The translations under genes were made by a program, and so were the position numbers. 32,787 nucleotides of DNA from assembly GCA_020831625.1 (NCBI GenBank), contig JAFIGD010000053.1, positions 1 through 32,787 of the forward strand. Reading direction: 5' to 3'. Position 1 is the first letter of the stretch. Every line of letters starts with the position of its first letter. Origin of the DNA: Verrucomicrobiota bacterium. Its GTDB lineage: Bacteria > Verrucomicrobiota > Kiritimatiellia > SS1-B-03-39 > UBA6053. The notes under the pieces are model-generated. The model made no database searches. It was not told the DNA's origin and saw only the letters and a list, made by a program, of their open reading frames with translations. Below are positions 5,531 to 32,443 of the stretch, one piece after another.

Positions 5531-7150
5531 TGGCTCATGCCCCTCGCCTCCCTCTTCCCGCTCCTCCTCGCCGGATGCGCCGCGCACCGCCGCCTCAAAG
5601 AACATATCCTGCTCCTCCTCCCGCTCGCGGCCCTCCCCGCCCTCGCCGCTGGACTCCTCCTCCCCGACGGCGCGTCCATCACCCTCCCCAACGCCCTCCT
5701 CGAAGCCTCCTGGACCATGGACCCCACCGGACGCCTCTTCCAGCTCTTCACCGCCTCCGGATGGCTCTTCGCTGGACTCTACGCCGTTTTTTACTTCAAA
5801 ACCGACCCCCATAAAGGCCGCTTTGCCGTCCCCTTCCTCATCGCCATGAGCGGGAATTTCCTGCTCCCCACCACCTCCGACGCCGTCACCTTCTACAGCG
5901 GCTTCGCGGTCATGAGCTTCGCCTCCTGGGGCCTCGTCGTCCACTCCGGCACCGAAGAGGCCCGCCGCGCCGGACGCATCTACCTCGCCCTCGTCGTCCT
6001 CGGCGAACTCATGGTCTTTCCCGGACTCGTCAAAGGCGTCCTCTGGGCCGAAACCGCCGACCTCGCCGCCATCCGCACCCACTGGGCCCTCGACCCCGAC
6101 CCGCGCCTGCAGATTTTTCTCATCTTCTTCGGTTTCGCCATCAAAGCCGGTCTCTTCCCCCTCCACTTCTGGCTCCCCCTCGCCCATCCCGTCGCCCCCA
6201 CCCCCGCCAGCGCCGTGCTCTCCGGCTGCATGGTCAAAGCCGGCCTCCTTGCCTGGATCCGCCTCATTCCCCTCGGCGAATTCCCCATGCCCGTCCTCGG
6301 ACACACCGCCGCGGGTCTCGCCGCCTGCGGCCTGATCCTCAGCCTGCTCTGCGGACTCACCCAGACCAACCCCAAAGCCCTGCTCGCCTACTCCAGCGTC
6401 AGCAAAATGAGCCTTATCGTGCTCCTCCTCGCCCCGGCCATGCTCGAACCCGCCCTCACCGCCCCCGCCCTTGCCGCCGCCCTCCTCTACGCCGGATTCC
6501 ACTCCCTCCACAAAACCGCCCTCTTCCTCGGATCCACCCTCACCGCCAAACTCGGTTCCAGGGCCCAACTCCCCCTCCTCCTCCTCTGCGCCTCCTTCGC
6601 CGGACTCCCCTGGCTCAGCGGAGCGCTCCTCAAGGTGCCCATCAAAGCCCTCCACGACCACATCGCCTTTCCCGGAGCCAACCTCTACCTCAACCTCTTC
6701 AACCTCGCCGCATTCCTCACCCTCCTGCTCATGGCCCGCTTCTTCATGCTCACCCGCCCCGCCGCGAATCCCGCCGCCCCCAAACCCTCCCGCGGTCTCG
6801 CCCTCACCTGGGGCCTCGCCACCCTCACCGCCCTCGCCATGCCCGCCCTCCTTATCCCGCTCAACCTCCTGCCCGCGACCGACACCGTCTACACCCCCGT
6901 CAAACCCTGGCTCGACCCCGTCTTCGCCCTCGCGCTTGTCACCCTCATTCTCTACAGCGCCATCCGTCCCCGGCTGCCCCGGCCCGTTCCGCCCGGCGAT
7001 CTCTTTCACATCCTTCCCCGACTCCCCTGCGGCTCCCTGAACCGCCTGCAAACCGCGATCCAGCACATGGAAAGCCACTTCAGCCGCCCCGCCGGCGGCC
7101 TCATTTACCTCTCCCTCATCCTGCTCTTCCTCCTCCTCATCCGGCAATGA
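5495..7150 (+). CDS. Second NuoN/MrpD-like membrane subunit
   Basis: This is a 551-residue paralogue of the D-like subunit. It keeps AIKAGLFPLHFWLPLAHPVAP with Lys217, and LLAYSSVSKMSLI, but the helix that normally carries the conserved glutamate reads FYSGFAVMSFASWG, with Ala138 at the expected Glu position. The true start is the ATG at 5495, overlapping the upstream stop as ATGA; the same frame stays open back to 4130 only as a shadow. The N-terminus is a triplicated MISP motif. It closes the operon. It could be a MrpA-like or hydrogenase-type subunit (HyfB-like), but no hydrogenase genes are nearby. Confidence 0.85.
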   Translation: MISPMISPMISPWLMPLASLFPLLLAGCAAHRRLKEHILLLLPLAALPALAAGLLLPDGASITLPNALLEASWTMDPTGRLFQLFTASGWLFAGLYAVFYFKTDPHKGRFAVPFLIAMSGNFLLPTTSDAVTFYSGFAVMSFASWGLVVHSGTEEARRAGRIYLALVVLGELMVFPGLVKGVLWAETADLAAIRTHWALDPDPRLQIFLIFFGFAIKAGLFPLHFWLPLAHPVAPTPASAVLSGCMVKAGLLAWIRLIPLGEFPMPVLGHTAAGLAACGLILSLLCGLTQTNPKALLAYSSVSKMSLIVLLLAPAMLEPALTAPALAAALLYAGFHSLHKTALFLGSTLTAKLGSRAQLPLLLLCASFAGLPWLSGALLKVPIKALHDHIAFPGANLYLNLFNLAAFLTLLLMARFFMLTRPAANPAAPKPSRGLALTWGLATLTALAMPALLIPLNLLPATDTVYTPVKPWLDPVFALALVTLILYSAIRPRLPRPVPPGDLFHILPRLPCGSLNRLQTAIQHMESHFSRPAGGLIYLSLILLFLLLIRQ

Positions 7151-7361
7151 TTTCCCCGCATGTCGGCATTCTACAACCCGACCGAGGCCTCACCCACCTC
7201 TCTCAATTCCCCGAAGTTCTCACAACATGAAAACTACGCCCCTGTATGTTCTTTGATTTCTTTATAACGAGCAAAAGAACAAACAATACTGTTGATTTCC
7301 AATATGTAATACCTGTATGGTGAGATCCAAACAGAATACAGACTTTACATAAGGAGATCTG
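7151..7361 (+). promoter_or_regulatory. Upstream region and probable promoter of the cas operon
   Basis: This 211-base gap holds no gene. Base composition drops from GC-rich to AT-rich at about 7240. A possible promoter is TTGATT at 7292-7297 and TATGGT at 7316-7321 with an 18-base spacer; it is only moderately like the consensus. A strong ribosome-binding site, AAGGAG at 7351-7356, precedes the cas9 ATG. No terminator for the membrane-subunit operon is evident. Confidence 0.45.
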
Positions 7362-10300
7362 ATGAGAACCCTAGGATTGGATTTAGGCACCAACAGCATT
7401 GGCTGGGCTGTGATCGACAGCTCACGACCTGAACCCCTGATCGCAAAAGGCGTACAGATTTTCGAGAAAGGCGTTGGCGAAGAAAAAAACAATGAGTTTT
7501 CGCTCGCTTCAAAACGAACCGTTTACCGGTCCGCGAGAAGGCGTAAACGCCGCCGCAAAATGCGGAAATATTTCACCCTGAAAGTACTGGTTGACGCAGG
7601 GATGTGTCCTGGTCTCACTCTGGAGGATTTACAGAAATGGAAAACGGAAAAAATATATCCGGCAAACTCTGAATTTCGGAATTGGCTTAACACACGAGCC
7701 GAGACGGATAAGCAGAAACCTGTAGACCCCTATACCTATCGGGATTTGGTGGCGAAACAGCCTTTGGATCTCTCTCAATCTGAAAATCGATACATCCTGG
7801 GAAGAGCCTTCTATCACCTGTCGCAACGACGTGGATACAAAAGCAATCGGGTCTCGGGAGAGGAAAAAGAGGGCACCGTCAAAGAGGCGGTACAGAAACT
7901 CGACCAGGAGCGGGGGCAGAGGACTCTGGGGCAATTATTTAAGCAGGATTATCTCGGGAAGTCTCGCATCCGGGGACGCTATACAGGTCGTGAACAATAT
8001 CAGGAGGAATTTGAACGAATCTGCACTGTACAAAATTTACCTGACAACCTTCGAAATCGTCTTGAAAAGGCGATTTTCCTGCAACGTCCGCTTAAATCTC
8101 AAAAAGGAAGTGTGGGCCCATGCCTTCTGGAAAAAGGAAAGCCCCGAGTTGCGATCTCCCACCCGGATTTTGAAAAGTTCCGGGCATTGCAACTGATCAA
8201 CAACATTCGCGTCGCTGAGCCTGGCGCAACCGTTTTCAGGCCTCTCTCTGATGCAGAAAGACATATCGCCCTTACGTGGAACCTTTCACGTTCGAAAAAC
8301 GAGAAGTTTGAAACGCTCGCGAAACAACTAACACCCAAAAAATCTAAACGTATTTTTGGTGTCAGACATCCGGCATCCGAACCGTACGCATGGCAGTTCA
8401 ACTTCCGGGAGGATGCAATGGTTTCAGAATGCCCTGTCAATGACCGGATGAGAAAGCTTTTTGGGGAGGAATGGCGAACAACTCTTCGTGAACAATACAC
8501 AAAAGCAGGTTCAAAAACAGACCAGCAAATTATAGAGGATGTCTGGCATGCCATGTTCAGTTTTGATGATCCTGACAAACTCCGGGCCTTTGGACAGCTG
8601 AATCTTGGATTGGGAGAGGATGAATCAAAATTGTTTATTCGACCTCTTCGCCAAGGATACGGTTCACTCAGCCTTGCTGCGCTTCGCAAAATTCTCCCTT
8701 GGATGGAAAAGGGGCTCATTTACTCCCATGCTGTTTTTCTGGCCAACCTACCGACACTCTTCCGGAAACAAGGACTAAAGTGGGAGGAATGTTCCGGCAC
8801 CGTTGAAAAAAAAATCCACAGGATCATTGTGACGGCCTCAGATTTGGGACTGAAACAGAAAGCCATACGGGAAGTTTTGAAGGATCTGATCGCCGAAGTG
8901 CCTACGGTTGACCCGGACACACTGGTGATGCCTCACCGGAAAAAGAAAATCTTTGCTATTCTTGAAAAAGAGCTTCGTTTGCGAATGGGTGCCGAGGTTT
9001 GGGAAAACCTCTCAACTTCGGAAGCCACAGCTTTGAAGGAGCAGCTATTTGAGGAAGTCAGAAACAACTTCCACAGCGGACTGAAAATTGAAGACCTGCC
9101 CATGACTCCAACCGTTGAGAGGCAAATCCAGAATTTGCTGAGTGAGTCCTATGGGATATCCGATAAACTCCTTGAGTTTGTTTACCATCCTGCAGCAATC
9201 GAAACCTACCCGGCGGCAACAGCCAAACTGGGTTCACCACGAATTCAATCCATTAAAAATCCGGTTTTTATGAGGGCGATGCATCGTCTTCGTGCGGTAA
9301 TCAATGAATTAATCGCGCAGGGTGTGGTGGACAGGGAAACACGCGTGCGTGTTGAAATGGCGCGTGACCTCACCACCGCAAACGATCGGAAGGCCATTTA
9401 CCGCTATCAAAAAGAACGGGAAAAAGAAAACGCCAAGTATTTTAAGGAAATCAAGAATCTGGGCTTTTCTGTGACATCAGAACAGGATCCATTAGTTTTA
9501 AAGTACAGACTATGGAAGGAACAGGAAGAAAAATGCATCTATACAGGCCGTCAAATCTGTGCCGCCGCGTTTCTCTCCAATACTCCTGCCTTCGATTTCG
9601 AACACACCATTCCGCAGAGCCGCCGTTTCGATGATTCTCAGGCAAACCTGACTCTGTGTGAATTGGACTTTAACCGGAATACAAAGGGCCGCAGAATGCC
9701 TTCAGAACTCCACAATCATGCGGAAATCCTTGAACGGGTGCACACACTCTGGGAGCCCCACGTCCGGGAGCATGAAACTGCGATAGCCAAAGCACGGATT
9801 GCGAGCCGGTCAGCTTCCGACAAGGATGCCAAGGATCAGGCGAGGCAACGGCTTCACTATCATCAGCAGCATCTACGCTATTGGCGGGATAAAATCCGGA
9901 ACTTTGAGACAAAAGAGGTGCCGGAAGGCTTCACCAACCGTCAATTGGTTGACACCAGAATTATCACAAAATACGCGACCCTTTACCTCAAAAGTTACTT
10001 CTCGCATGTGTACTCTCTCAAAGCGTCCGCCTTGAGCACCCTCAAAGAAATTTGGGGGCTTAAGGAAAAACATCGCGATAACCACATACACCATTGTGTG
10101 GACGCAATCATCGCTGGAGTAGTGAGCCCGCGGTTCTACGATGAACTGGCCGCCTACTACCATGCCCATGAACGCTGGACCAAATCCGCAGCACCCAAAC
10201 CCCGCGCTCCTGAACCATGGCCCGGTTTCGCTCAGTATTTGAATGAAAAATTGGTTAAGGAAGTCCTCGTTGTCCACCACAAACGGGATCTCCTCCTGAA

Positions 10301-11198
10301 ACAAACACACAAATTATTGCGCGTCCGGGGAAAAATCCAGTTGAACCCGGAGGGAAAACCCATTTACGTTCGGGGTGACAGCGCCCGGGGGGCGCTCCAT
10401 CAGGAGACAAATTACGCCAAGGTACGGGAAGTACCCACTGAGGAAAATCCCGAACCCGGCGACCTCTTTACCGTAGTGCGCAAACAACTGAACGAAACCT
10501 TTAAACCTGAGGATATTGAAAAAATTGTCGACCCCGTCGTGAAGAAAATAGTCAGAGCTCAGAAAGACCGCATCGGTAAAGAAACCGTCTGGTTCAATAA
10601 GGAGAAAGGAATTCCAATCCGGCATGTGCGTATCCGGTGCGTAAATAAAACTGAATCATTGATTAGCTTGCGTGAGCATCGCGATGTCTCTAAAGCCAAC
10701 CATAAAAAATATCTATATACCGCAAAAAGCAAACCTAATTTCCTTATTGCCATTTATAATGGAAAATTAAAAAATAAACCGAAATGGGATCTAAAACTTC
10801 TGAGCACATTTGAGGCTATTCAAGCCTCAAAGAATAGACTTCTTACTGATTTACTTCCTGAAATCAGCGATGAAGGGTTGAATTTGAAATATGTATTAAA
10901 GCCTGGCACACAAATAATGTTCTGCAAAGAGTCGCCAGCTGAATTAAAAAAATTACCTTTAGAGGTTGTCTCCAATAGACTGTACATTGTTTCTGGCATG
11001 GAGACGGATAGAATTAGTTTTGATCATCACATCACGAGTTTGACCGATAAAGTTTTAGGAAAAGGTAAAACAAAAATTGATTTTGAAGAGACAGCACCAT
11101 CCCTACGCTTACGGCTAAGTGCTTCAAAGTTAAATCTGGCTGTGGAAGGACAACATTTCACGTTATCAAGCACCGGAGAAATCAAATGGAGGTTCTGA
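7362..11198 (+). CDS. cas9: CRISPR-associated endonuclease Cas9, type II-C
   Basis: Cas9 cuts DNA guided by crRNA and tracrRNA. The 1278-residue protein shows RuvC-I (GLDLGTNSIGWA, Asp7), an arginine-rich bridge helix (about 56-70), RuvC-II with Glu665 (RVRVEMARDL), the HNH domain with His748 (DFEHTIPQS) and Asn771 in DFNRNTKG, and RuvC-III (HIHHCVDAIIAG, His911 and Asp914). All catalytic positions are present. The neighbours are cas1 and cas2 without csn2 or cas4, hence subtype II-C. The length is above the ~1000-1100 residues common in II-C. Start at 7362 is fixed by AAGGAG. The region encoding roughly residues 1090-1250 is far more AT-rich than the rest. Confidence 0.98.
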   Translation: MRTLGLDLGTNSIGWAVIDSSRPEPLIAKGVQIFEKGVGEEKNNEFSLASKRTVYRSARRRKRRRKMRKYFTLKVLVDAGMCPGLTLEDLQKWKTEKIYPANSEFRNWLNTRAETDKQKPVDPYTYRDLVAKQPLDLSQSENRYILGRAFYHLSQRRGYKSNRVSGEEKEGTVKEAVQKLDQERGQRTLGQLFKQDYLGKSRIRGRYTGREQYQEEFERICTVQNLPDNLRNRLEKAIFLQRPLKSQKGSVGPCLLEKGKPRVAISHPDFEKFRALQLINNIRVAEPGATVFRPLSDAERHIALTWNLSRSKNEKFETLAKQLTPKKSKRIFGVRHPASEPYAWQFNFREDAMVSECPVNDRMRKLFGEEWRTTLREQYTKAGSKTDQQIIEDVWHAMFSFDDPDKLRAFGQLNLGLGEDESKLFIRPLRQGYGSLSLAALRKILPWMEKGLIYSHAVFLANLPTLFRKQGLKWEECSGTVEKKIHRIIVTASDLGLKQKAIREVLKDLIAEVPTVDPDTLVMPHRKKKIFAILEKELRLRMGAEVWENLSTSEATALKEQLFEEVRNNFHSGLKIEDLPMTPTVERQIQNLLSESYGISDKLLEFVYHPAAIETYPAATAKLGSPRIQSIKNPVFMRAMHRLRAVINELIAQGVVDRETRVRVEMARDLTTANDRKAIYRYQKEREKENAKYFKEIKNLGFSVTSEQDPLVLKYRLWKEQEEKCIYTGRQICAAAFLSNTPAFDFEHTIPQSRRFDDSQANLTLCELDFNRNTKGRRMPSELHNHAEILERVHTLWEPHVREHETAIAKARIASRSASDKDAKDQARQRLHYHQQHLRYWRDKIRNFETKEVPEGFTNRQLVDTRIITKYATLYLKSYFSHVYSLKASALSTLKEIWGLKEKHRDNHIHHCVDAIIAGVVSPRFYDELAAYYHAHERWTKSAAPKPRAPEPWPGFAQYLNEKLVKEVLVVHHKRDLLLKQTHKLLRVRGKIQLNPEGKPIYVRGDSARGALHQETNYAKVREVPTEENPEPGDLFTVVRKQLNETFKPEDIEKIVDPVVKKIVRAQKDRIGKETVWFNKEKGIPIRHVRIRCVNKTESLISLREHRDVSKANHKKYLYTAKSKPNFLIAIYNGKLKNKPKWDLKLLSTFEAIQASKNRLLTDLLPEISDEGLNLKYVLKPGTQIMFCKESPAELKKLPLEVVSNRLYIVSGMETDRISFDHHITSLTDKVLGKGKTKIDFEETAPSLRLRLSASKLNLAVEGQHFTLSSTGEIKWRF

Positions 11199-11202
11199 GG
11201 CC

Positions 11203-12099
11203 ATGCTCAAACGCACCCTTTTTTTCACAACATCCTGTCACCTATCCGTACACCTCAGCCAGTTATTGATCCGAAGGAAGGACCAGGATGACCGCAAAGT
11301 TCCTCTGGAAGACATTGCGGTACTGGTACTTGAAAATCCTTCTATTACTCTGACAGTTGCCTGCCTCCAGCGCCTCTTTGAGCAAAATGTGGTTGTAGTA
11401 GTCTGCAATGCCAAGCACATGCCGGAAGCACTGCTTCTTCCTTCCAGTGCAAACAATGTCCATTCCGAGGTGTTGCGCCTTCAAATCCAGTCCTCGTTAC
11501 CCATGACGAAGCAACTTTGGCGGCAAACCGTGCAGGCAAAAATAGGCAACCAGGCAGAACTATTGGAACGTCTCAACCGAAAAGGGTCTCCACGAGTGCG
11601 GCAACTTGTCCGGGAAGTGAAGTCAGATGATTCGGACAATAGAGAAGGTGTCGCCGCCCGGATTTACTGGCAGGAATTGTTCGATGATCCGACCTTTATT
11701 CGCGAACGGGAAGGAAATGCTACTAATTCGCTGCTGAACTACGGATATGCGATCCTACGCGCCGCCACCGCCCGGGCTCTAGTTTCCTCAGGTTTGCTGT
11801 GTGCAATTGGAATACACCATCGAAACCGCTACAATCCGTACTGTCTTGCGGATGATATCATGGAACCCTACCGTCCTTTTGTGGATCAAATCGTTCACGA
11901 GATCGTTCTAAAGGACGATGAAGCCCCCCAAATCACCCCTGAAATAAAAATGAAACTCATGGAGGTTTTAACTTGTGACACCTTTATCAACGGAGAGCGC
12001 AGCCCTTTGCTGGTTGCGCTCAGCACCACAACCGCCTCGCTGGTGCGATGTCTTCGGGGAGAAAGGGATTCGAAAATTTTATATCCCTGTCTGCAATGA
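11203..12099 (+). CDS. cas1: CRISPR adaptation integrase Cas1
   Basis: Cas1 with Cas2 inserts new spacers into the array. The 298-residue protein has a family-typical beta-rich N-terminal half and a helical catalytic half, with the metal-binding residues Glu148 (NREGVAARIYW), His205 (GIHHRNRYNPY) and the acidic group near 217-221 (LADDIMEPYRP). It begins four bases after the cas9 stop, with GGAGG in the end of cas9 as a possible ribosome-binding site. It overlaps cas2 by ATGA. Type II-C is consistent with the size and gene order. Confidence 0.97.
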   Translation: MLKRTLFFTTSCHLSVHLSQLLIRRKDQDDRKVPLEDIAVLVLENPSITLTVACLQRLFEQNVVVVVCNAKHMPEALLLPSSANNVHSEVLRLQIQSSLPMTKQLWRQTVQAKIGNQAELLERLNRKGSPRVRQLVREVKSDDSDNREGVAARIYWQELFDDPTFIREREGNATNSLLNYGYAILRAATARALVSSGLLCAIGIHHRNRYNPYCLADDIMEPYRPFVDQIVHEIVLKDDEAPQITPEIKMKLMEVLTCDTFINGERSPLLVALSTTTASLVRCLRGERDSKILYPCLQ

Positions 12100-12440
12100 G
12101 CGTTCTGCATTTGGCAGCGGAAAGTTACCGCATCATGTGGCTCTTCTGCTTCTTTGATCTTCCTGTGGAAACCAAAAAACAACGCAAGCTGGCTGCAGGC
12201 TTTCGTAAAGACCTGCTGAAAGATGGCTTTGGTATGATGCAGTTTTCCGTTTATATCCGCCATTGCGCCAGCCGGGAAAATCTGGAAGTCCATGTCAAAC
12301 GCGTAAAGAATTTTTCACCCGATACTGGATCCGTCAGTTTGTTAGCCATAACCGACAAGCAGTTTGGAAACATGATAAACCTCTTGGGGACAAAAGCCAC
12401 CGCCCCACCCAGTACCCCAAAACAACTTGAAATGTTCTGA
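12096..12440 (+). CDS. cas2: CRISPR adaptation protein Cas2
   Basis: Cas2 is the structural partner of Cas1 in spacer acquisition. The start is the ATG at 12096, which overlaps the cas1 stop; an upstream in-frame ATG at 12048 lies inside cas1 and is less likely. The product is 114 residues with the Cas2 core WLFCFFDLPVETKK (Asp21) in the first strand, followed by FRKDLLKDGFGMMQFSVYIR. The C-terminal extension after about residue 90 is proline- and threonine-rich. The tracrRNA region begins right after its stop. Confidence 0.95.
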   Translation: MSVLHLAAESYRIMWLFCFFDLPVETKKQRKLAAGFRKDLLKDGFGMMQFSVYIRHCASRENLEVHVKRVKNFSPDTGSVSLLAITDKQFGNMINLLGTKATAPPSTPKQLEMF

Positions 12441-12483
12441 AATTCCTGTTGACGACCGATGTTGATTAAGGTTATGAAGGATG

Positions 12484-12558
12484 TGGAATCTATTCACAGT
12501 AAGGCCAAGTGCCGAAGGATTAATTCCTACAGCCCCGCCTAGGTGGGGCATTTTTTTT
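12484..12558 (+). ncRNA. Predicted tracrRNA
   Basis: The anti-repeat at 12485-12500 (TGGAATC then TATTCACAGT) is complementary to the 5' half of the array repeat, with one small internal mismatch. It is followed by AAGGCC, as in other II-C tracrRNAs, then three stems: 12503-12513, 12516-12528 and the terminator at 12532-12549. A TTGACG at 12449-12454 with TATGAA at 12473-12478 is a weak possible promoter, placing the 5' end near 12484. A longer 5' form pairing with more of the repeat (from about 12458) is also possible. Same-strand orientation implies that the array is transcribed on the plus strand. Confidence 0.82.
12532..12558 (+). terminator. Intrinsic terminator of the tracrRNA
   Basis: GCCCCGCC and GGTGGGGC form an eight-pair stem (one G-U) with a tiny loop at 12532-12549, followed by eight T residues at 12551-12558. 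Confidence 0.88.
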
Positions 12559-12598
12559 GATGCTGTTCTTTGAAAACCGCATAGAAACGACCTTTTTT

Positions 12599-12658
12599 TT
12601 CACAGCCAATACTCACAAACGACTGTTTTTCAGCGCTTTATGAGTCATTGGCTGTGAA
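12599..12658 (+). promoter_or_regulatory. Inverted repeat across the CRISPR leader-repeat junction
   Basis: The left arm at 12599-12615 (TTCACAGCCAATACTCA) pairs with 12641-12658 (TGAGTCATTGGCTGTGAA) with a single bulged base. The right arm includes the first eight bases of the first CRISPR repeat. The loop is 25 bases. The rest of the leader (12559-12650) is AT-rich with a nine-T run ending at 12600. The role is unknown; it could be an integration-host or Cas1-Cas2 recognition structure or an RNA fold. Confidence 0.7.
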
Positions 12659-15326
12659 CTGATTCCAATCTCAAGAGAGAAACACCTTACGGCGGTTATG
12701 TCCCATAGATATATTCGCTGTGAACTGATTCCAATCTCAAGAGAGAAACACCATTATCATAAATTTTGAAAAGGGGAGTTTTGCTGTGAACTGATTCCAA
12801 TCTCAAGAGAGAAACACCGAGGACACCCCCGGCTTGCGCATCTCCATGGCTGTGAACTGATTCCAATCTCAAGAGAGAAACACCCAACCCAACTCGCCGC
12901 CATCGACCGCGCCAGCTGTGAACTGATTCCAATCTCAAGAGAGAAACACCCATCGCCTTTTGTGAGGCCCGCGAATCACAGCTGTGAACTGATTCCAATC
13001 TCAAGAGAGAAACACCAGTGCCATCAAAATCTTGTAAGGTACACCCGCTGTGAACTGATTCCAATCTCAAGAGAGAAACACCGCAGCATGGTTTGACCTA
13101 AATTCGTCAACTGCTGTGAACTGATTCCAATCTCAAGAGAGAAACACCTCCGCCGCGACCGTGAACGACGCCAAGCCCGCTGTGAACTGATTCCAATCTC
13201 AAGAGAGAAACACCTTCCAGTCGCTCAAGCAACAAGCGGAAGAAGCTGTGAACTGATTCCAATCTCAAGAGAGAAACACCATGTCCCGATGACGAGAAGG
13301 AGGAGGAGTAGCTGTGAACTGATTCCAATCTCAAGAGAGAAACACCGATGACGAGCGGAAGCGCGAACACGGTCAGGCTGTGAACTGATTCCAATCTCAA
13401 GAGAGAAACACCACGCTCCTATATGCGGATCGGCGAAAAGCGGCTGTGAACTGATTCCAATCTCAAGAGAGAAACACCAACACCTTCGACCTAGACCAAG
13501 CCCGCAACGCTGTGAACTGATTCCAATCTCAAGAGAGAAACACCGGAGGAACGGGAGTATGAGCGCATCACCACGCTGTGAACTGATTCCAATCTCAAGA
13601 GAGAAACACCGTCCTCACGATCTGGGATCCGGATTCCTTTGCTGTGAACTGATTCCAATCTCAAGAGAGAAACACCCAGGGACGCATCGTATTAGAGGCC
13701 GAGGAGGCTGTGAACTGATTCCAATCTCAAGAGAGAAACACCCGAACAAAGATCCAAAAACACCTGATTCACGCTGTGAACTGATTCCAATCTCAAGAGA
13801 GAAACACCCCATCGGCCGATGGAAGGGCAAAGTACACAGCTGTGAACTGATTCCAATCTCAAGAGAGAAACACCCTCGACCACGCCCCCTTTTACCGCAT
13901 CACTGCTGTGAACTGATTCCAATCTCAAGAGAGAAACACCCGGTTTGATTTTCTAAATTGCCGCCAATGTGCTGTGAACTGATTCCAATCTCAAGAGAGA
14001 AACACCCTCGGCAACTACCTCTACTGCCAGGCCGACGCTGTGAACTGATTCCAATCTCAAGAGAGAAACACCGTAATCGCCGCCCTTATCCGTAATCCAC
14101 CAGCTGTGAACTGATTCCAATCTCAAGAGAGAAACACCCCTCCTTGGCATCAAAGCCCCCGAATCCCAGCTGTGAACTGATTCCAATCTCAAGAGAGAAA
14201 CACCCTCGACCACGCCCCCTTTTACCGCATCACCGCTGTGAACTGATTCCAATCTCAAGAGAGAAACACCCATCAAGCCGAAGCGTTAAAAACAGAATCC
14301 GCTGTGAACTGATTCCAATCTCAAGAGAGAAACACCCGTTCCAGAGACCTCCTCAACCCGCAAGGGGCTGTGAACTGATTCCAATCTCAAGAGAGAAACA
14401 CCGAGCGCGGACTCGGCAGACTCATGAACCCGGCTGTGAACTGATTCCAATCTCAAGAGAGAAACACCTCACCACCTGCAGGGTATTCCCGTGCCACAGC
14501 TGTGAACTGATTCCAATCTCAAGAGAGAAACACCCACCGCCGCGAACCGGCAGCACCATAATCCGCTGTGAACTGATTCCAATCTCAAGAGAGAAACACC
14601 CTGGTGCGGCTGCTGGATCGTTATTTGCAGGCTGTGAACTGATTCCAATCTCAAGAGAGAAACACCGCCGGCCATTGCAGGGAGAGGCGCTCGGTGGCTG
14701 TGAACTGATTCCAATCTCAAGAGAGAAACACCGTGCCGAGGATTTTGCCGACGTTCGCGAGGGCTGTGAACTGATTCCAATCTCAAGAGAGAAACACCCG
14801 ACCGTCCGGCGTGGTCAACTGCGGGATGGCTGTGAACTGATTCCAATCTCAAGAGAGAAACACCTCTTTGCGCTCAACATAAAAGCAGCAAAGGGCTGTG
14901 AACTGATTCCAATCTCAAGAGAGAAACACCTCATCGGGCTCAACGACTCCCTTTGCACCGGCTGTGAACTGATTCCAATCTCAAGAGAGAAACACCCCAA
15001 CGACGACAACCAGAAGGCCCTCGACGGCTGTGAACTGATTCCAATCTCAAGAGAGAAACACCCTCGCCGACCGCGCCCACTACACCCGCCTCGCTGTGAA
15101 CTGATTCCAATCTCAAGAGAGAAACACCATCATCCCCCTCCGAAATCCCTACTACCAAGCTGTGAACTGATTCCAATCTCAAGAGAGAAACACCCCAGGA
15201 ACAGGACAGCTTCCCGGATGATTAGCTGTGAACTGATTCCAATCTCAAGAGAGAAACACCCCTAGTGCTCAGCCGGCTGGCCGACTTCCTGCTGTGAACT
15301 GATTCCAATCTCAAGAGAGAAACACC
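12651..15326 (+). CRISPR. Type II-C CRISPR array: 41 repeats, 40 spacers
   Basis: The 36-bp repeat begins GCTGTGAACTGATTCC and ends AGAGAGAAACACC. It recurs exactly every 66 bases from 12651 to 15291, giving 41 copies and 40 spacers of 30 bp. I see no base change in the copies I compared, including the first and last. The 5' half of the repeat pairs with the tracrRNA anti-repeat, so crRNA is read from the plus strand and the leader is at the cas2 side. Because 66 is a multiple of three, the array stays open in several frames and yields spurious long ORFs. Spacers 19 (13875) and 24 (14205) are nearly identical. Confidence 0.99.
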
Positions 15327-15327
15327 C

Positions 15328-15386
15328 ATGGTTTTACGACGGACGGGAAATTGGTTTAGCCAATTTCCCGTCCGTCGTAAAACCAT
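15328..15386. repeat. Perfect 27-bp inverted repeat abutting the last CRISPR repeat
   Basis: The arms at 15328-15354 and 15360-15386 are perfectly complementary, with a five-base loop (TTTAG). The arm starts ATGGTTTTACGACGG. It lies one base after the terminal repeat. No T-run follows directly, so it is not a classical intrinsic terminator. A 15-bp tandem duplication (ATCATTCTGTCG core) at 15400-15429 follows it. Confidence 0.95.
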
Positions 15387-15540
15387 CTAACCTTCTCCAA
15401 TCATTCTGTCGTCCATCATTCTGTCGCAACGGCACCAATCGTTTTTTCTTTTCCTAGGCCTCCCCCTCCTCTGGATCCAAACGCTGCCAATTCGCCGCCG
15501 GTGGCCATACCTGGAAACCGGGCAGCCCCTCCGCCGAATC

Positions 15541-15814
15541 CTAAAACACATACCCCGCCGAAAAACTGACATGCGCCCCGCCGGATTCATTCCGCTGGTC
15601 CCCCTCCAGCGTCTCCATCGGAAAGGCCAGATCCACCCGCACCGGAAAATTCTCCGGTGGACGGCGTATACCCCGCAAACACCGTCAAATCGCAGCCGAT
15701 AAGCCTGTGGGCGAACCGGATGCACCGCACCGGGAACTAGGCCAGGGTCAGCCCCGGCGCAAAGAGTTCCAGCATGGCCCGGTTCAGATCTTTGGTGTGC
15801 ACGTCCATTTTAAC
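15541..15814 (-). pseudogene. Decayed C-terminus of an outer-membrane beta-barrel protein
   Basis: Read on the minus strand, 15814-15740 gives a peptide ending NRAMLELFAPGLTLA, then a stop; the same frame continues FPVRCIRFAHRL and DLTVFAGYTPST; after a one-base shift it reads NFPVRVDLAFPMETLEGD and closes with HVSFSAGYVF and a stop. The terminal aromatic residue and alternating pattern resemble the last strands of Omp85/BamA-like barrels. It contains at least one stop and one frameshift and has no N-terminal part. The remainder of the gap (15430-15540 and 15815-16000) shows no gene. Confidence 0.45.
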
Positions 15815-16000
15815 ATCATCCTGACCCGGAGGGGGCGGGTTATTCAAAAATAATGATAGTACAAACGCATGTTTACAAGCGGAAAATTGAACAATTAGAG
15901 ACTGCTTAACCATGCATGATGCGTGAGCAAAAAAATACCTTGGAGAATATGCGGAAGGCAGATATGAAGCTTTGCAAATCATATTCTTTGGATCGCTCCA

Positions 16001-25653: not shown

Positions 25654-25772
25654 AGTGAACCCCTCTTACACCGATTTCCAAAAACCGAAAATCATTTTCC
25701 AAATAAATTTCAACCCTCTCCCGCCCTTAAAGTGCCCCCACCCGAAACCCAAGAACCTCCCCACATCATATC

Positions 25773-25859
25773 CTTAATCTTAATCTTAATCTTAATCTTA
25801 ATCGTAATCTTAATCGTTATCGTAATCGTAATCGTTATCGTAATCGTTATCGCAATCGA
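25773..25859. repeat. Degenerate hexamer microsatellite
   Basis: About 14 copies of a six-base unit (C or G, T, A or T, ATC) run without a gap between the flavin reductase start and the RM operon. The first units are CTTAAT-type, the later ones CGTAAT/CGTTAT-type. The translated frames are low-complexity isoleucine/valine runs and are not genes. No gene lies in 25654-26029. Confidence 0.9.
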
Positions 25860-30734: not shown

Positions 30735-32443
30735 CAACCGCCCAGCTCCTCGAACAGCACTTCGACACCGCCTTCGCCGCCCCCGACGGCATTCCCAAAC
30801 TGCGCGAACTCATCCTCACCCTCGCCATGCGGGGCAAACTGGTGCCCCAGAACCCCGACGATCCCCCCGCACGCGACCTGCTGAAGGAAATCGAAGCCGA
30901 AAAGAAAAAAGTCTCTCACAAAGGCACGGGGACACGGAGAAAAAACAAAGAACTCCCGCCCATCAAACCCGAGGAAATCCCCTACGAACTGCCGCAGGGC
31001 TGGGAGTGGGTGAGGTTGGGGGGAATCTGCCATGACTGGGGACAAAAAATCCCTGACAAAAAATTCACATACATCGATGTGGGATCAATAGACAATAAAA
31101 TTGGGGCCATTGGGTCAAACACGCAACTACTCGATCCTTCAGAGGCACCTTCACGGGCTCGCAAAATCGTTAAGCCAGGGACAGTGGTCTACTCAACGGT
31201 AAGGCCGTATTTGCTCAACATTGCTATCATAGAGAAAGAATATAACCCTGAGCCTATTGCAAGTACTGCATTTGCCATCCTTCATCCGTTTCGATCAATC
31301 TTGCCCCGATTTCTATACCGCTATTTGCATGCGCCATCATTTATCCAGTACGTTGAAGCATGCCAAAAAGGCGTTGCGTATCCTGCCATAAATGATGGCG
31401 ATTTTTTCAAAGGATTATTCCCCCTCCCACCCCTCCCCGAGCAAAAGCGGATCGTCGAGCGGATTGACCAGTTGATGGCGCGGTGCGATGCCTTGGAGAC
31501 GCTGCGCAGGGAGCGGGAGGAGAAACGCCGCGCCGTCCACGCCGCCGCCATCCGGGAATTGCTGAGGCCTCCTCTCCGTGCCTCCGTGCCTCCGTGCGAG
31601 ACCCCAAATCCCTTCACCTTTCTTTCCCGCCACTTCCGCGAACTTTACACCGACAAACAAAACGTCGCCGAACTCCGCAAAGCCATCCTCCAACTCGCCG
31701 TCATGGGCCGCCTCGTCGAACAAGACCCCAACGACCCGCCCGCCAGCGACCTGCTCAAAGAAATCGAAGCCGAAAAGAAGAAGGTCTCTCACAAAGGCAC
31801 AGGGACACGGAGAAAAAGCAAAGAACTCCCCCCCATCAAACCCGGGGAAGTTCCGTATGAAGTACCGAAGGGGTGGGAGTGGGTGAGGTTTGGAAAAGTG
31901 GCAAACAACCGACTTGGGAAAATGCTCGACAAATCAAAGAATCGAGGAAACCCAAAACCATATTTGCGAAACACCAATGTTCAGTGGCATCAGTTTGTCC
32001 TTGATGATGTAAAAGAGATGAAGTTTGAAGATGATGAGTTAAATGAATTTCGTGTGCTTCCAGGTGATCTGCTCATATGCGAAGGTGGCGAACCTGGGCG
32101 CTGCGCTATATGGAGGAATTCCGAGATGGAAATCTATTTCCAAAAAGCTATTCATAGAGCAAGACCCTCTTCGTGCGTTACTTCTGAATATCTTCAAATT
32201 TGTCTTACCAACGATGCGGGCAATGTTCAGCTTAGCAAATATTTCACAGGGGCAACAATCAAGCATTTCCCGGGTGACAAACTCAATAAATATATTATCC
32301 CCCTCCCCCCCCTCCCCGAGCAACACCGCATCGTCGCCCGGATTGACCAGTTGATGTCTCTGTGCGACGAGCTGGACCGGCAGATTGACACGGCGGACGG
32401 CAAACAGACAGAACTTCTCGAATCCGTGATGGCGGCAGTTTGA
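30731..32443 (+). CDS. hsdS: Type I restriction-modification specificity (HsdS) subunit
   Basis: HsdS reads the two halves of the DNA target for HsdM and HsdR. The 570-residue protein has two target-recognition domains (about 84-235 and 374-525), each closed by PLPPLPEQ(K/H)RIV and followed by a helical conserved region. The two halves begin with the same LLKEIEAEKKK helix. Residues 61-72 and about 352-363 (VSHKGTGTRRK) and 279-291 (LRASVPP) are encoded by dispersed repeats. DNA of both recognition domains is AT-richer than the conserved parts, a sign of domain exchange. The frame is intact. ATG at 30731 overlaps the upstream stop. Confidence 0.95.
   Translation: MTTAQLLEQHFDTAFAAPDGIPKLRELILTLAMRGKLVPQNPDDPPARDLLKEIEAEKKKVSHKGTGTRRKNKELPPIKPEEIPYELPQGWEWVRLGGICHDWGQKIPDKKFTYIDVGSIDNKIGAIGSNTQLLDPSEAPSRARKIVKPGTVVYSTVRPYLLNIAIIEKEYNPEPIASTAFAILHPFRSILPRFLYRYLHAPSFIQYVEACQKGVAYPAINDGDFFKGLFPLPPLPEQKRIVERIDQLMARCDALETLRREREEKRRAVHAAAIRELLRPPLRASVPPCETPNPFTFLSRHFRELYTDKQNVAELRKAILQLAVMGRLVEQDPNDPPASDLLKEIEAEKKKVSHKGTGTRRKSKELPPIKPGEVPYEVPKGWEWVRFGKVANNRLGKMLDKSKNRGNPKPYLRNTNVQWHQFVLDDVKEMKFEDDELNEFRVLPGDLLICEGGEPGRCAIWRNSEMEIYFQKAIHRARPSSCVTSEYLQICLTNDAGNVQLSKYFTGATIKHFPGDKLNKYIIPLPPLPEQHRIVARIDQLMSLCDELDRQIDTADGKQTELLESVMAAV
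30911..30944 (-). repeat. Dispersed repeat copy inside hsdS (first half)
   Basis: CTCTCACAAAGGCACGGGG followed by ACACGGAGAAAAA matches the complement of the intergenic repeat at 28456-28490 and encodes VSHKGTGTRRK in frame. Confidence 0.75.
31571..31603 (+). repeat. Dispersed repeat copy inside hsdS (central linker)
   Basis: CCTCTCCGTGCCTCCGTGCC then TCCGTGCGAGACC is in the same orientation as the copy at 28456-28490. It encodes the proline-rich linker near residues 279-291. Confidence 0.75.
31784..31817 (-). repeat. Dispersed repeat copy inside hsdS (second half)
   Basis: Nearly identical to the copy at 30911-30944 and at the equivalent place in the second half of HsdS, so it probably arose by duplication or gene conversion of the conserved region. 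Confidence 0.75.

Follow-up and report, generated by a model that had tools for sequence, protein, structure and literature searches.

What is a long, perfect hairpin doing at the end of a CRISPR array, or how did it come to be there? This question is raised by the window analysed here, the whole 32,787-nucleotide stretch of a contig from a Verrucomicrobiota bacterium. The first-pass annotation had described a 27-bp perfect inverted repeat with a five-base loop, one base away from the last CRISPR repeat, and this description is accurate: the 27-nt 5′ arm (15328-15354, + strand) and the 3′ arm (15360-15386, + strand) are complementary at 27 of 27 positions, the second being the exact reverse complement of the first; they flank the 5-nt loop TTTAG (15355-15359, + strand); and C15327 alone separates the stem from the last repeat, which ends at 15326. 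None of the 27 pairs is a G-U pair. In the RNA form, an inner T-G pair is able to close as well, giving 28 pairs, a 3-nt loop and a folding energy of -48.9 kcal/mol, and a 171-nt stretch around it reaches a folding z of -7.5 relative to dinucleotide shuffles. The hairpin is the longest perfect one among 725,439 sampled bases of its own genome, in which only four stems of at least 20 bp occur, this one included. It is far beyond chance.

The hairpin follows a CRISPR-Cas locus with the gene order cas9-cas1-cas2-tracrRNA-array (7362-15326), and the presence of cas9, cas1, cas2 and a tracrRNA together fits type II-C. All components lie on the + strand: cas9 (7362-11198; 1278 aa), a cas1 of the type II family (11203-12099), cas2 (12135-12440), the 3′ part of the tracrRNA (12483-12558), with the anti-repeat GTGGAATCTATTCACAG at 12483-12499 and a U-tailed terminator at 12532-12558, an upstream leader (12559-12650), and the array itself (12651-15326). 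The array consists of 41 exact copies of one 36-nt repeat, the last of which (15291-15326) is identical to the other 40, and of 40 spacers of exactly 30 nt. Spacers 19 (13875-13904) and 24 (14205-14234), five units apart, are the same 30-mer except for the last base. An Rfam scan of the window returned one tRNA and otherwise nothing. Cas9 relatives were not found in viral contigs, and a search of the genome-contig collection for closer Cas9 relatives found only distant Bacteroidota.

In its + strand reading, the repeat has a 5′ part complementary to the anti-repeat GTGGAATCTATTCACAG, and the T run of the tracrRNA terminator lies on that strand too. The crRNAs therefore derive from the + strand, and the hairpin falls at the pre-crRNA 3′ end. 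Polarity is less direct, since all 41 repeats are identical and hence carry no signal of it. The closest systems, in genomes G184, G023 and G093, belong to the same family, with cas9 about 50% identical; in G184 and G023 repeat degeneracy is greatest at the downstream end, and the upstream leader is conserved between G184 and G093 (z = 7.3). We therefore take the hairpin end to be distal and transcriptionally last, and it is probably also the oldest end of the array. The leader of the window was assigned by homology to the sister systems, yet its own sequence has diverged and shows no significant similarity to the sister leaders, so that the polarity of this array rests on clade membership. 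In type II-C systems the first repeat is usually the degenerate one and acquisition occurs at the downstream end; the sister arrays of G184 and G023 run opposite to this. More broadly, the clade of Cas1/Cas9 families f1, f2 and f6 has the degenerate repeat downstream and a conserved leader upstream, reversing the usual II-C polarity of other branches (L075, L076, L084, L086, L088 and L099 versus L090, L093, L095, L101, L216 and L220).

A stem-loop at a transcript end brings intrinsic termination to mind, and the hairpin does provide the stable stem-loop of an intrinsic terminator (-48.9 kcal/mol). It differs from such terminators in lacking a U-tract and in stem length, which far exceeds that of the tracrRNA terminator of the same genome, a canonical U-tailed stem. 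Directly 3′ of the stem the + strand reads CTAACCTTCTCC, with no T run; no U-tract was found right after the stem on either strand (CTAACCTT on +; GGGTGTTT on -). The earlier statement that the hairpin has no T run thus holds on the + strand, and a terminator scan flagged the hairpin on neither strand. We consider it quite unlikely that the hairpin instead terminates transcription intrinsically in a non-canonical way, perhaps on both strands, between the array and convergent transcription. The great strength of the stem would fit such a role, as would the T5 that follows the array-end stems of G038 and G241, the 17-bp stem plus T6 at +87 of the G035 array, and the T-rich stretch that the G023 stem faces on the opposite strand; against it stand the count of only 3 T in the 8 nt past the stem on the + strand, the GGGTGTTT that follows on the - strand, and the silence of the terminator scan.

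The sequence beyond the stem points to a different kind of ending. A pyrimidine-rich stretch (15387-15476, + strand; 33 C, 32 T, 14 A and 11 G) follows, with an excess of C over G in the top 3.3% of 90-nt windows of the same genome, and is a possible Rho-entry (rut-like) region. Genes for Rho and RNase III are present in the genome. A U-less hairpin followed by C-rich, G-poor sequence is what Rho termination with a trimmed, hairpin-protected 3′ end would leave. Term-seq data from E. coli include hairpins that lack a U-tract and precede C-rich, G-poor sequence; these have been explained as 3′ ends left by trimming once Rho had terminated transcription downstream (PMC13289151). The window hairpin shares with these stabilising 3′-end hairpins a strong U-less stem, the C-rich, G-poor sequence behind it and an encoded Rho; it differs in capping a CRISPR array rather than an mRNA, in starting 1 nt past a repeat and in having 27-28 pairs.

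The first-pass annotation had proposed comparing array ends in related genomes, and the comparison gave a divided answer: the sequence of the hairpin is not conserved in 66 other arrays from relatives, whereas its position is reused by other stems. Arrays were collected from 32 cas9 loci in the class and 40 cas1 loci in the phylum, and we counted stems of at least 13 pairs starting no more than 6 nt from the array end. With automatic strand calls, which were made by anti-repeat matching and are noisy, such stems lie downstream of the last repeat in 6 of 64 arrays and upstream in 2 of 53. Two arrays, G038 and G241, were then re-oriented by hand because the repeat start motif lies on their other strand, with which their T5 tails agree; this gives stems of 13-28 pairs in 8 of 64 downstream flanks versus 0 of 53 upstream flanks (Fisher p = 0.008). 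Since the re-orientation was made post hoc, with the result already seen, the downstream bias is suggestive only. The excess of stems over shuffled flanks, of which 2 of 2,340 have comparable stems, is independent of how G038 and G241 are oriented.

The stems themselves are varied. Those of G075 and G155 have 21 bp and a triloop and start at +1, as does that of G269 (21 bp with one G-U, triloop). G150 has 13 bp at +3; G065 has 14 pairs at +6, with a further foot that extends to +1; G038 has 13 bp at +4 followed by T5; and G241 has 17 pairs at +4, including G-U pairs and one mismatch, also followed by T5. The 11-bp stem of G023 at +4 falls under the counting limit. In the Cas1 tree, the systems with array-end stems sit on scattered branches. 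Between G075 and G155, which belong to one genus, 5 of the 21 pairs differ and all five differences are compensated. Compensation is what selection on pairing would predict, and it favours selection on the hairpin of this pair, although two sequences are few and the covariation could be mimicked by template-switch correction; in a search for further arrays of the G075 genus, G155 was the sole match. Most arrays have no such stem, the same-family array of G184 among them, and no trailer conservation was detected in close Cas9 relatives. In several other arrays, the downstream end doubles as the acquisition (leader) end.

We favour the reading, with a probability of roughly one half, that the hairpin is a 3′ stem-loop that caps the pre-crRNA, transcription being terminated farther downstream. 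What favours it is the strand and position of the stem, the missing U-tract, the presence of Rho and RNase III genes, and the reuse of the position in other arrays. The array would be transcribed from the cas/tracrRNA side; RNA polymerase would pass the last repeat and the palindrome and stop farther on, perhaps through the action of Rho within the pyrimidine-rich stretch; and the 28-pair stem would then mark the mature 3′ end, either as a block to 3′-to-5′ exonucleases or as a substrate of RNase III, which the host also uses in type II crRNA maturation. We infer transcription through the hairpin, the site at which it ends and the protective role from the DNA sequence. The first-pass annotation had suggested that the hairpin acts as a barrier or stabiliser where the array transcript has its distal end; strand and position, the lack of a U-tract and the stems that recur at the 3′ ends of other arrays fit this suggestion, while the role itself stays a predicted one. 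Several observations count against a cap. The stems of several other arrays could serve acquisition, their downstream end being the leader end; the downstream enrichment hinges on re-orienting two arrays; most arrays, such as that of G184, have no stem; 27 pairs without a G-U pair would suit an origin at the level of DNA; and a 27-bp stem exceeds the length needed to block an exonuclease.

The main rival, which we regard as rather unlikely but serious, is that the hairpin is a palindrome without function, created where the array border was rearranged, through template switching during replication or through fold-back repair. A terminal spacer, later copied in the inverse sense, may once have occupied the 30 nt directly behind the last repeat (C, the arm and TT). 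The segment ahead of the loop does match the 30-nt spacer length, but a comparison of the arm with all 40 spacers found no shared stretch as long as 8 bases. The pairing is perfect, with zero G-U among 27 pairs, the hairpin sequence is absent from relatives, and the right flank looks like a rearranged border: it contains two CATCATTCTGTC mini-repeat units (15397-15426, + strand), a sequence dispersed in same-genus genomes, and then two fused gene remnants (15541-15818, - strand), in which a BamA-like C-terminal end is joined to the N-terminal part of a gene that G580 carries intact. The first-pass annotation had read the perfect pairing as a sign of recent origin or selection; such a border favours recent change of the hairpin. 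A palindrome of this origin leaves unexplained the stems of unrelated sequence at the same place in other arrays, and also the compensated pairs of G075 and G155, though repeated template-switch correction could yield the latter. We therefore find this explanation favoured for the copy in the window, given the absence of G-U pairs in 27 and the unstable neighbourhood, and disfavoured as a general account because stems recur elsewhere.

Other features bear on the history of this neighbourhood. The N-terminal fragment within 15541-15818 is regulator-like, and its gene is whole in G580 at the syntenic place. Only the two CATCATTCTGTC units at 15397-15426 were found in the organism's own genome; in relatives, such mini-repeats cluster between genes and at contig ends (L136, L138, L139, L140 and L143). 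On the other side of the locus, sodium/proton antiporter genes precede cas9 in the window, and in G015 the place of cas9 after the antiporter genes is taken by a type I restriction-modification-like operon (L179:985-5101 versus window 7150-7362), an assignment made by reading the translations. Defence genes thus seem to be exchanged at this locus. Elsewhere in the window, 30795-31020 and 31668-31893 are 81% identical stretches within one 658-aa frame beside restriction genes, like a tandem specificity subunit, and 25765-25854 is an intergenic run of degenerate tandem ATCTTA/ATCGTA hexamers.

The remaining explanations fare worse. It is very improbable that the palindrome acts as DNA, as a cruciform or Cas1-Cas2 anchor that signals acquisition at the array end: the G269 stem does abut the end opposite the degenerate repeat, which is the acquisition end, and the stem side of G075 and G155 is the conserved flank, but in the clade of the window the degenerate repeat is on the hairpin side and the conserved leader on the other. 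Less probable again is that a small MITE- or REP-like mobile element left the hairpin behind. The first-pass annotation had raised an inserted element and had noted that many copies elsewhere in the genome would make the hairpin an ordinary dispersed element; we looked for such copies and found the hairpin once in its own genome. In shape the hairpin resembles a short element bounded by terminal inverted repeats, and a dispersed mini-repeat adjoins it, yet no adjacent direct repeat indicative of a target-site duplication was seen when the flanks were inspected by eye, no phage or plasmid matches the hairpin, no exact copy of the arm was found in viral contigs, and the arms occur in relatives, phages, plasmids and viral contigs only as short coding look-alikes. 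The mobile-element reading is largely refuted by copy number, on which a dispersed element was rejected. We likewise rejected the CATCATTCTGTC mini-repeat and the hairpin as a single element (the mini-repeat copies of relatives have no such perfect hairpin alongside), homology of the arm to matches in G093 and G581 (chance similarity to coding DNA), and a protospacer origin of the arm, which was not found in viral contigs and resembles none of the 40 spacers. The same genome also contains recurring palindromes based on TTCCGAnnnTCGGAA (L068:9487, L069:12201, L072:14422 and L074:3168), which may form a REP-like family. Least probable of all is an assembly or library artefact. The assembly is a draft of 111 contigs and one related contig ends in adapter-like sequence, but the contig with the hairpin continues for 17 kb, syntenic to G580 from 15648 on, and fold-back chimeras normally yield longer inverted copies. 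The related contig, from G580, ends in GACGCTCTTCCGATCT (L159 far end, reverse strand start), which resembles adapter sequence left over from sequencing.

Hairpins at array edges have been described in type II-A, II-C and VI systems, where they lie upstream and deal with an extra repeat (PMC12080349; PMC13187072). In type II-C systems, hairpins and Rho-independent terminators suppress extraneous crRNA (Feussner et al., 2025; PMC12080349). The window hairpin is likewise an RNA stem beside a type II-C array; those hairpins, however, precede the first repeat and exert their effect on the extra one, whereas on the crRNA strand the window hairpin lies not upstream of the first repeat but downstream of the last, whose crRNA has a genuine spacer. 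The leader-repeat hairpins of type II-A and type VI systems (PMC13187072) also form a stem at the array edge, but they pair leader with repeat, while the stem in the window contains no repeat sequence and sits at the opposite end. A narrow search of the open full-text literature found no description of a capping hairpin at the downstream end of an array.

We tentatively propose, while leaning against it as a general rule, that stem-loops dedicated to capping, which define where the pre-crRNA ends on its 3′ side, have arisen repeatedly in the type II arrays of this phylum, forming a class that is long, has a triloop, is U-less and starts +1 to +2 past the last repeat. If this is true, the capping stem-loop would be an undescribed array part beside the leader and the extraneous-crRNA hairpins. 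The ends of pre-crRNA transcripts have been little studied compared with their starts, and a stem that recurs at the downstream edge with a conserved structure would add a new and testable part to type II arrays. Its possible roles include protecting the crRNAs of the oldest spacers, stopping read-through and providing an extra RNase III site, and it would also provide a sequence cue for array orientation.
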